A DNA stretch of 64,000 nucleotides from Bacteroidota bacterium (GTDB lineage Bacteria; Bacteroidota; Bacteroidia; AKYH767-A; 2013-40CM-41-45): NCBI GenBank assembly GCA_004295015.1, contig SHNE01000017.1:101819-165818 (forward strand), in the 5' to 3' direction. The position numbers and the translations under genes were made by a program. Under the pieces are notes generated by a model. That model worked only from the letters and a program-made list of their open reading frames with translations. It was not told the DNA's origin and made no database searches. Below are positions 35,693 through 39,174 of the stretch, one piece after another. Positions within the stretch are counted from its first letter, which is position 1. Each line of letters starts with the position of its first letter.

Positions 35693-35700
35693 TATCTTTG
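35693..35700 (+). promoter_or_regulatory. Putative -7 box of the DAHP synthase gene
   Basis: TATCTTTG matches TAnnTTTG and lies 7 bases before the ATG at 35708. It supports 35708 as the true start of the interrupted gene. A good -33 element was not found. Confidence 0.5.
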
Positions 35701-35707
35701 TGTGCTT

Positions 35708-36823
35708 ATGAGCAACAAAAATCTAACAGGCATTTTACCCTTAAACTCATGGGGTTTTGGGGAGGCTCTCCCTTTCATTATTGCCGGTCCATGCTGAATG
35801 GAATCTGTTGAACAGATCAATGAAATAGCTGCGAAGCTCAAAGGTAGCAAAGTCAATATGCTTAGAGGAGGGATCTGGAAACCTCGTACAAGACCTGACT
35901 CCTTTCAAGGCATTGGAGAAGAAGGGCTTCAGTGGTTAAAAACGGCCGGAATTGAGAATAATTTGCCTGTTACCGTCGAGGTTGCTCACCCGAGGCATGT
36001 GGAGCAAGCACTTAAATTAGGAATTGATTGCCTTTGGATCGGGGCACGTACAACGGTTAACCCTTTTTTAGTGCAGGAAATAGCTACTTCCTTAGACGGG
36101 GTAGATATTCCTGTTTTTGTTAAGAATCCTATTAATCCGGAGCTTGAACTCTGGATTGGAGCAATCGAACGGTTTTACAATGCCGGAATTAGAAAATTAG
36201 GAGCAATCCATAGAGGCTTTTCTTCTTATGAAAAATCGAAATACAGGAATGTTCCAAATTGGCAAATTCCAATAGAATTGAAAAGAAGATTGCCTGAACT
36301 TCCGGTCTTGTGTGACCCAAGCCATATTGGTGGTTCTCGTGAACTAATAGGTCCGATAGCACAAACAGCCATGGATTTAAGTTTTGAAGGCTTGATGATT
36401 GAAGTACACCCGGACCCATCCAAGGCGCTGAGTGATAAAAATCAGCAACTGATTCCTGCTGAATTTCTTGCTCTTATCGAGTCCTTAGTGGTGCGAAAAA
36501 AATCTGTAGACGATGTAATCTTTCTAAACCTGCTTGAAGAGTTGCGTGACAGAATTGACAAGATTGATGAAGACATTCTTCAGTTTATGGCGGAACGCAT
36601 GAGTATTGCACGTGAGATCGGACAGTATAAAAAGGAGAATAACATGACGATCCTGCAGGTGGAGCGCTGGAATGAAATTTTGAGGACGCGTCAGTTATCC
36701 GGCTTACAAAAAGATTTGAGTCGTGATTTTATCATCCAGTTGTATGAAAAAATTCATGATGAATCTATCTATCATCAGACTCAGGTTATGAATACTTCTG
36801 AAACTCAAAAGCAAAAACACTAA
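35708..36823 (+). CDS. DAHP synthase-chorismate mutase fusion, interrupted by an in-frame TGA
   Basis: The frame opens at ATG 35708 (MSNKNLTGILPLNSWGFGEA), runs 29 codons to IIAGPC, meets TGA at 35795-35797 and continues at once with ATG 35798 for 341 more codons. Family members read GPCSAES or GPCSVES here, so the stop replaces a serine beside the metal-binding cysteine. Downstream, DAHP synthase motifs are intact (GGIWKPRTRP, LWIGARTT, CDPSHIGGSRE, MIEVHPDP), followed by an AroQ-type chorismate mutase domain (LRDRIDKIDEDILQFMAERM). The enzyme starts the shikimate pathway, and the fused mutase usually gives feedback control. A product starting at 35798 would lack the metal-ligand cysteine. 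Explanations are readthrough, reinitiation giving two chains, a true null allele, or sequence error. aroB and aroA follow intact. Confidence 0.85.
35795..35797 (+). other. In-frame TGA at the serine position of the GPC[S] motif
   Basis: The codons read GGT CCA TGC TGA ATG GAA TCT, in the same frame on both sides. TGA is a normal stop elsewhere in the window (for example aroA and the HD hydrolase), so a reassigned genetic code is not indicated. Confidence 0.9.
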
Positions 36824-36835
36824 TTTTTTTCAGGC

Positions 36836-37924
36836 ATGGGAGCTGTACTTTCCAACACTTTTAGTGAGGTGCATATAGGAGAAGGTGCTCTAGCGGATTT
36901 AAGCAACTTACTTTGCGAGGAGTTTTCAGCATCAAAGAAATTTATTCTTGTAGATTCCAATACCCGGAAGCATTGTTTGCCGGTTCTTTTGAAATTTTTT
37001 CATGAGAGTATAAATTATGAACTCATAGAAATTGCTGCAGGAGAAGAGCATAAAAGTTTGGTGTCATGTGAAAAAATCTGGAAAGCCTTAACAGCCGGAG
37101 AAATTGATAAGCACTCAGTGATAATTAGTTTGGGTGGCGGCATGATCGGTGACCTGGGTGGCTTTTCTGCAGCAACAATACTTCGGGGCGTTAAACACAT
37201 TCAGGTTCCAACCTCTTTGCTTGCGATGGTGGATGCTTCGGCAGGAGGAAAGACAGGAATTAATTTATCCGGATTGAAAAATCAAGTCGGAACATTTTCT
37301 CATCCCTTGGCCATTTATATCTATCAGCCATTTCTAAATACTTTACCTGAAAGAGATTTTAATTCCGGCTTAGCGGAAATTGCCAAGCATGCCTTGATTG
37401 CAGATGCTGAATTATGGGAAAGCTTTCGTAAGAAAAAAACATTTGATGATGAAGACATAAGGCAATTTGTTCTACGATCCATTGAGATTAAAAGCGGATT
37501 TGTTGCAATGGATGAAAAAGATTTAAGGGAACGGCACGCACTCAATTTTGGCCATACAATAGGTCATGCCATAGAAGCATTCTCCCTGGCTAAGTATGAA
37601 CTTGCCTTTTTGCATGGAGAAGCTGTGGCGGTTGGCATGATTGCAGAGTCTTACTTGTCTGAAATCGTGTCCGGACTTCCGACACATGAAGCGGAGGAAA
37701 TTGTTAATTGTCTGGCATCACGCTATCATTATTTAAATTTTGATTTTGAACCTACCCAATTGATGCCGTATATTAAGCATGATAAAAAGAATAAAAATTC
37801 TATTCCTGATTTTACCTTACTACCCTCTATCGGTTCCGTTAAAATAAATCAACATACATCTGAGGAGAATATTGAAATCGCGATTAGAAAAACCCGGAAT
37901 CTCTTTTTGAATCCTGTTGTATGA
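36836..37924 (+). CDS. aroB: 3-dehydroquinate synthase
   Basis: This 362-residue protein has AroB landmarks: SLGGGMIGDLGGFSAATILR, VPTSLLAMVDASAGGKTGIN, ERHALNFGHTIGHAIEAF and FLHGEAVAVGMIAE, with the zinc-binding Glu and His residues in these segments. It converts DAHP to 3-dehydroquinate, the step directly after the upstream DAHP synthase. The start is 12 bases after the DAHP synthase stop. Its last four bases (ATGA) overlap the aroA start. Confidence 0.95.
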   Translation: MGAVLSNTFSEVHIGEGALADLSNLLCEEFSASKKFILVDSNTRKHCLPVLLKFFHESINYELIEIAAGEEHKSLVSCEKIWKALTAGEIDKHSVIISLGGGMIGDLGGFSAATILRGVKHIQVPTSLLAMVDASAGGKTGINLSGLKNQVGTFSHPLAIYIYQPFLNTLPERDFNSGLAEIAKHALIADAELWESFRKKKTFDDEDIRQFVLRSIEIKSGFVAMDEKDLRERHALNFGHTIGHAIEAFSLAKYELAFLHGEAVAVGMIAESYLSEIVSGLPTHEAEEIVNCLASRYHYLNFDFEPTQLMPYIKHDKKNKNSIPDFTLLPSIGSVKINQHTSEENIEIAIRKTRNLFLNPVV

Positions 37925-39174
37925 GGCCACTGATTGTTCATCCTCCTAAGAATAAAATAAACGGTGATGTCAATCTGCCTACGTCTAAGAGTATGGCAAA
38001 CCGTTATCTGATAATTAAAGCTCTCAGCAATAATTTGGATACGGAGTTTATTCCCTCTCAGTCTGAGGACAGCATACTTCTTCACAAACTACTCAATAAT
38101 TTGCATGCAGATATTGATGCAGGGGATGCAGGAACCGTTTATCGTTTTTTGACAGCTTTTCTTTCGTGTAAGCCCGGTGAGTGGAATTTAAGTGGCTCCG
38201 ACAGGATGCTTGAAAGACCCATTGGTCCGCTGGTAAATGCATTAATTCAAGCAGGAGCAAATATTTCATTCTCCGGAAAAACCGGTTACCCTCCATTGAA
38301 AATCCATGGAAAGCCATTAAATGGGGGGCTTGTAAAAATTGATGGGGACTTGAGTTCACAATTTATTACAGCTATTCTCTTAGTTGCACCATACATGGAA
38401 CAAGGCATTAATCTTATCCTGACGTCAAGGCCATCATCTGTTCCTTACATTCAAATGACCATTGAGTTCATGAGAAGACTGGGGATTTCGGTGAATTGGG
38501 AAGGAGACACAATTGTTGTTGAACCGGGAGTGTATAAAGAGAATTCTATTAAGCTTGAATCTGACTGGAGTGCGGCTGCATTTTTTTTCGAATTATGTGC
38601 GCTAAGCAAAGCCGCTTCAATTCAAATCAGAGGATTGTCGGAGGAAAGCATTCAGGGCGATTCCAGGCTGTGGAAAATCATGCAGAACTTTAACGTGGAC
38701 ACTATATTCGGCAATTCCGGCTTGCATATTGAGAAGCTTTTCAGTGGAAATCAGGTGTCAAATTTTTTAATGAACTGTAATGAAATTCCGGATCTTGTTC
38801 CTGCTTTGGTTTGTACTTGTGCGGGTTTAGGAATTGATGCAAGTTTTTCCGGAATCCATACCTTGCTCATTAAAGAGTCGAACAGAATTATTGCTTTGCA
38901 AACAGAATTAAGAAAACTTGGCTTGAAGTCCGATTACGACGCAAAGTCCGACATTCTTCGCATTCATAAGGGTCGATTGAAACCATATAAAGGAACTTTA
39001 AGGACCTATAATGATCATCGCATTGCTATGTCGCTCGCTCCATTAGCGCTTGTATGTGGAGAATTGTCTCTTGATGATGGCTCTGTAGTTGCAAAATCAT
39101 TTCCTTCATATTGGGAGCAATTAACAAAGCTTGGTTTTAATATCGAAGATGTTCAGGTTAAAAGCGAATTCTGA
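37921..39174 (+). CDS. aroA: 3-phosphoshikimate 1-carboxyvinyltransferase (EPSP synthase)
   Basis: This 417-residue protein starts with the EPSP synthase pattern INGDVNLPTSKSMANRYLII and has DAGDAGTVYRFLTAF, GDLSSQFITAILL, and LLIKESNRI then RTYNDHRIAMSLAPLAL. It forms EPSP from shikimate 3-phosphate and phosphoenolpyruvate. It overlaps aroB by four bases, a sign of coupled translation. Its last 17 bases overlap the end of the convergent helix-hairpin-helix gene. Confidence 0.94.
   Translation: MRPLIVHPPKNKINGDVNLPTSKSMANRYLIIKALSNNLDTEFIPSQSEDSILLHKLLNNLHADIDAGDAGTVYRFLTAFLSCKPGEWNLSGSDRMLERPIGPLVNALIQAGANISFSGKTGYPPLKIHGKPLNGGLVKIDGDLSSQFITAILLVAPYMEQGINLILTSRPSSVPYIQMTIEFMRRLGISVNWEGDTIVVEPGVYKENSIKLESDWSAAAFFFELCALSKAASIQIRGLSEESIQGDSRLWKIMQNFNVDTIFGNSGLHIEKLFSGNQVSNFLMNCNEIPDLVPALVCTCAGLGIDASFSGIHTLLIKESNRIIALQTELRKLGLKSDYDAKSDILRIHKGRLKPYKGTLRTYNDHRIAMSLAPLALVCGELSLDDGSVVAKSFPSYWEQLTKLGFNIEDVQVKSEF

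Follow-up and report, generated by a model that had tools for sequence, protein, structure and literature searches.

The DAHP synthases PgiDAH7PS-CM of Porphyromonas gingivalis and PniDAH7PS-CM of Prevotella nigrescens combine a synthase barrel (PF00793) and a PF01817 domain in one chain of about 370 residues. According to PMC12202928, separating the two whole domains of the P. gingivalis homologue lowers the kcat of the DAHP synthase from 6.3 to 0.58 per second and raises the Km for chorismate from 19 to 207 uM. The same architecture, an N-terminal DAHP synthase barrel fused to a C-terminal PF01817 domain, is encoded in the window, i.e. the whole stretch of 64,000 nucleotides analysed here, but this copy differs from the two described enzymes by a TGA placed right after the GPC motif. 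Both Pfam families are present in the 120 listed database matches of the interrupted protein. The nearest structures are solved DAHP synthases, by sequence for the window protein and by fold for its best database match, designated P0001. An aroB gene lies directly downstream (36836-37924, above the NCBIfam cut-off) and is followed by aroA (37921-39174), for which aroA is the best model with 274.7 bits, slightly below the cut-off of 287.25. Both reading frames are uninterrupted, as the original prediction had stated.

The gene can be read as a frame extending from the ATG at 35708 to the TAA at 36821-36823, of which the TGA at 35795-35797 is the sole interruption. Rereading the sequence confirmed that this frame is open on both sides of the TGA and that an ATG follows immediately, two points already made in the original prediction. 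The translation around the site runs ...PFIIAGPC, TGA, ATGGAATCT..., with the cysteine codon of IIAGPC directly before the stop. The features of the locus are the following:

35693..35700, plus strand: TAnnTTTG promoter box (TATCTTTG), 7 nt before the start codon (from the sequence and the spacing in 10 family members)
35708..36823, plus strand: gene for a fused DAHP synthase-chorismate mutase, interrupted by a TGA (sequence, domain and structure matches)
35708..35794, plus strand: the 29 codons 5' of the stop, comprising the N-terminal stretch, the first barrel strand as predicted, and the GPC cysteine (sequence, alignment and predicted fold)
35795..35797, plus strand: in-frame TGA at a position that is a sense codon in relatives, for Gly in the majority of the nearest ones (sequence and DNA-level loci)
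35798..35800, plus strand: ATG abutting the stop, a possible restart codon; Met is found there in 0 of 119 readable database relatives
35798..36823, plus strand: downstream ORF of 341 residues, with the barrel lacking its first strand and the chorismate mutase domain
35803..35817, plus strand: perfect 7-bp inverted repeat with a 1-nt loop, beginning 2 nt after the ATG codon

The cysteine that precedes the TGA is presumably a metal ligand of the DAHP synthase. This role is not stated in the accessible portions of PMC9936198 or PMC8115020. The agreement between the promoter box and the upstream start, proposed earlier, is borne out by comparison: the box ends 7 nt before the ATG at 35708, and a TAnnTTTG box is found 6-11 nt before an in-frame ATG in nine of the ten family members examined, the window included (loci L033-L037 appear to duplicate genomes already counted). 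The lone member without this spacing is the same-genus locus L006. Since the spacing is common to the family, the upstream start is very likely correct, and a box so close to it suggests a message that would be leaderless or nearly so. Scans for sigma-70-type promoters and terminator patterns gave nothing of use.

With the 341-residue chain as query, 59 of 60 relatives gave a DAHP-synthase-type match with an E value of at most 1e-20, the exception (G021; best match 2.9e-8) being a genome that is 58% complete. This query begins after the stop and the site was therefore read separately in the DNA. A sense codon occupies it in 108 of 109 related loci (L004-L112, some genomes being counted twice), and the remaining one (L048) is masked. 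A first pattern fitted 100 of these loci and gave 101 places, all sense, with Ser at 76 (AGT 38, AGC 19, TCT 8, TCG 7, TCA 2, TCC 2) and Gly at 25 (GGT 15, GGA 6, GGG 3, GGC 1); eight of the nine loci outside this pattern are sense under a looser one, the ninth being the masked L048. The same-genus genome G001 has GGA GTG at the two positions, and Ser is found at the site in the contaminated genome G008. A stop common to the relatives can be rejected, as no readable related locus has TGA at the site, and the conserved UGA expected in orthologues of a selenoprotein or readthrough gene is not seen. The observation is real, but the stop is private and not conserved.

The database proteins give a similar view of the amino acids involved. 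Among the best 120, the 119 that are readable at the site and the next position have Gly-Val (99), Gly-Ile (6), Ser-Val (12), Ser-Ala (1) or Ala-Val (1), and Met directly after the site in no case; these proteins are ORF translations, unable to show a stop, for which the DNA-level loci count. The classical motif has Ser after GPC, whereas most of the nearest relatives of the window gene have Gly: GPCG is found in 105 of the 119 and replaces the usual GPCS in eight of the nine family loci first read (L004-L011, L018). The reading GPCSAES or GPCSVES, initially attributed to the family, does not describe most of these nearest relatives. Among the matches flagged for stops in the search of the relatives, the seven of the DAHP-synthase type were read and the KDO8P-synthase-like rows left aside. 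Six of these stops simply close a full-length fused protein, and the seventh (G047) lies 234 residues past GPC, the position expected for the end of a DAHP synthase that has no fused domain.

No interruption is found in the best database protein, P0001 (373 aa), which agrees with the window protein at 368 of 371 residues. The only differences, given as P0001/window, are Leu/Ile at residue 24, Gly/stop at 30 and Val/Met at 31, and the remainder of the gene is thus intact, as first described. P0001 is listed with two contigs, the longest of 2,445 bases, and three cluster members; the contig of the window has 165,818 bases and its aroB is listed with it. P0001 probably comes, then, from contigs other than the window's own, and the sample may coincide. 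The Ile of the window at residue 24 is the common state, found in 96 of the 119 readable database proteins, so that P0001 represents a slightly different haplotype and the private changes of the window are reduced to the stop and the Met, in adjacent codons. Random placement puts three differences inside a span of 8 of the 371 codons in about 0.1% of draws, and two of them next to each other in about 0.5%. Ordinary divergence is low, since the adjoining proline dehydrogenase differs from its near-identical database copy (P0128) at two of 394 residues, 52 and 122, far apart. Further decay, such as additional stops, frameshifts or lost conserved residues, was not seen in the gene, which does not have the appearance of an established pseudogene. 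Two private adjacent changes with none elsewhere in 371 codons point rather to one local error or multi-base mutation than to a lasting feature. The earlier view that the need for two base changes makes an error less likely therefore finds no support here. The TGA is one base away from a Gly codon, and the Val/Met change in the next codon is separate.

The genome (3,862,699 bases in 56 contigs; completeness 99.98, contamination 0.14) contains no recognised substitute for this gene. PF00793 has two matches, the window gene and a protein on contig C2 that was rejected as a second DAHP synthase, being a KDO8P synthase above the curated cut-off; PF01474 has no match in the genome. A second chorismate mutase was likewise rejected, PF01817 matching solely the window gene. 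Within the families tested, the genome has no recognised DAHP synthase or chorismate mutase besides the window gene. Of the two observations that the original prediction had set against itself, an ordinary sense codon in relatives was therefore found, and a second functional DAHP synthase was not. A chorismate synthase was found in the genome and, together with aroB and aroA, makes it probable that a fixed null allele of the sole recognised DAHP synthase would be costly.

A separate observation concerns the use made of chorismate in this group. Prephenate dehydratase (PF00800) and prephenate dehydrogenase (PF02153) have no match in the window's own genome. Among 41 genomes (G000 and 40 relatives of the same family or order), PF00800 is found in a single one and PF02153 above cut-off likewise in one, in both cases G008, which is 7% contaminated, and one weak PF02153 match below cut-off is present in G020; both families are present in 14 of 14 control genomes. 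From these matches, the bacteria would either lack Phe and Tyr synthesis or possess unknown enzymes for it. The fused chorismate mutase domain is kept despite the near-absence of PF00800 and PF02153 in the 41 genomes, and it may be retained since it holds the DAHP synthase dimer together. No paper was found on a missing prephenate dehydratase in Bacteroidetes. The sole chorismate-binding enzyme (PF00425) of the genome (G000:C6:97063-97833; L153:1468-2769, minus strand) is nearest to PabB, with 320.8 bits, just below the cut-off of 328.4, and the PF00425 search gave no further candidate for an anthranilate or isochorismate synthase.

The exceptional character of the TGA within its own genome was assessed by comparing, with tblastn, 394 ORFs taken from 393 kb of the same-genus genome against 442 kb of this genome. 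This comparison yielded 76 non-overlapping stretches (28,123 aligned columns), 45 of them within the window, and four stops. Three of these lie within 7 columns of an alignment end and the fourth is the TGA at 35795-35797, so that no other mid-protein stop is present in the 76 stretches. This lone interior stop indicates that UGA is an ordinary stop here and that similar lesions do not abound in the assembly; a genome-wide reassignment would place UGA within many conserved genes, which was not seen in the 442 kb compared. An interior-stop scan based on codon usage was discarded, with a weak coding bias and the TGA at 35795 absent from the 40 listed of 459 candidate stops, and was superseded by the same-genus comparison.

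Taken together, these results make a local error in the sequence or a rare broken copy the most likely origin of the stop, rather than a new mode of gene reading. The preferred explanation, with a probability of roughly one half, is that a local base-calling or assembly error has placed a TGA in an otherwise intact DAHP synthase-chorismate mutase gene. In that case the ATG at 35708 would start a single chain of 371 residues, codon 30 would encode an ordinary amino acid, likely Gly, and the two private changes would be artefacts and not a real rare allele. This explanation is preferred because of the near-identical uninterrupted P0001, the lack of decay, the status of sole DAHP synthase and the position of the adjacent private changes by an inverted repeat. 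The perfect short repeat at 35803..35817, which follows the stop and the ATG, would count in its favor if the window was sequenced by Illumina: PMC3622629 reports Illumina miscalls after inverted repeats. No paper was found on premature stop codons as MAG errors. An erroneous consensus base is nevertheless rare in a 166-kb contig, and the 76 stretches free of any other mid-protein stop show that the assembly is not generally poor. P0001 differs at residue 24 too, which leaves room for a real strain allele, and it is perhaps not independent of the window's own sample.

The same clean assembly lends weight to a second explanation, which is credible even if less probable than a sequence error. 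A real and very recent null allele may have arisen by a nonsense change in the sole DAHP synthase, in a population living on environmental aromatic compounds. The demand for chorismate may be low, as the genome has no PF00800 or PF02153 match and a single chorismate-binding enzyme nearest to PabB, and this also adds to the weight of a null allele. On the other hand, folate would still require chorismate, aroB, aroA and chorismate synthase are present, and the relatives retain a strong DAHP-synthase-type match, with the single exception of the incomplete G021. The near-identical uninterrupted copy in the database is a further argument against a null allele, which in addition leaves the adjacent second change unexplained.

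Termination followed by reinitiation, in which a real stop and a restart at the adjacent ATG would give a 29-residue peptide and a 341-residue chain, is improbable. It would account for the adjoining TGA and ATG, for a Met without counterpart in the readable database relatives and for the intact downstream ORF. The structural cost, however, can be estimated from the structure predicted for P0001, with a mean pLDDT of 80.9 and lower certainty in the chorismate mutase part. The first of its eight predicted barrel strands spans residues 25-29, corresponding to window residues 23-27, and all 30 aligned proteins have the Cys of GPC. The chain from the ATG at 35798 would lose both; an uninterrupted chain containing the strand and the Cys is found in P0001 and not in the window gene. 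The retained chorismate mutase would have no known prephenate-using enzyme in the genome, and in the Porphyromonas homologue the splitting of whole domains already cuts activity strongly, as reported in PMC12202928. A working enzyme made of two pieces is unlikely.

Programmed or basal readthrough of the UGA, by a suppressor tRNA, selenocysteine or near-cognate reading, is even harder to sustain. The frame is open on both sides of the TGA and shows no decay, but the stop is found in no readable related locus and the 76 stretches contain no other mid-protein UGA. Candidate tRNA-Sec and suppressor tRNAs were rejected among the tRNA matches scored: ten matches to the tRNA-Sec model were obtained, none above cut-off (150 of 251 candidates scored), and none of the 35 matches to the general tRNA model (150 of 234 candidates scored) has a UCA anticodon, each having been typed by ARAGORN either directly or inside neighbouring loci. 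A stem-loop following the UGA was rejected as well, the fold of 35795-35900 being no better than that of shuffled sequences (z -0.73). No paper was found on a DAHP synthase with an in-frame stop codon. In the course of this tRNA survey, a weak match of 33.9 bits was observed just before the window (G000:C7:100639-100712), typed as His with the anticodon gtg at an odd position; a normal tRNA-His is present on contig C9, and the weak match is perhaps a degenerate tRNA gene. Very little credence can finally be given to a freshly split enzyme, in which a nonsense change after the metal-binding Cys and a change of the next codon to ATG would allow coupled reinitiation, the pieces reassembling as a weak DAHP synthase tolerated since the lineage needs little chorismate. 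Among the options originally listed, a sequence error and a null allele therefore stand, in this order, whereas readthrough and reinitiation are unlikely.

The consequences differ with the origin of the stop. In the case of an error, a few wrong bases are sufficient to make a single-copy gene of a central pathway look dead or recoded, and a near-identical uninterrupted protein in public data largely answers the question. A real and expressed stop would mean either a TIM barrel divided, unusually, behind its first strand or the loss of the entry step of a pathway in a bacterium that retains the later steps.

UGA is recoded in selenoproteins and in the UGA-to-Gly codes of some candidate phyla. 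The window gene resembles these systems by an in-frame UGA where near relatives have Gly; it differs from them in that no matching tRNA was found in its genome and in that TGA ends six of the 33 open stretches of at least 200 codons in the window, together with 25 TAA and two TAG. Nonsense alleles and consensus errors, for their part, occur in draft genomes. The window gene departs from these by a second private substitution, which creates an ATG in the next codon, and it shares with them a single private stop, an undecayed gene and a near-identical uninterrupted copy elsewhere.
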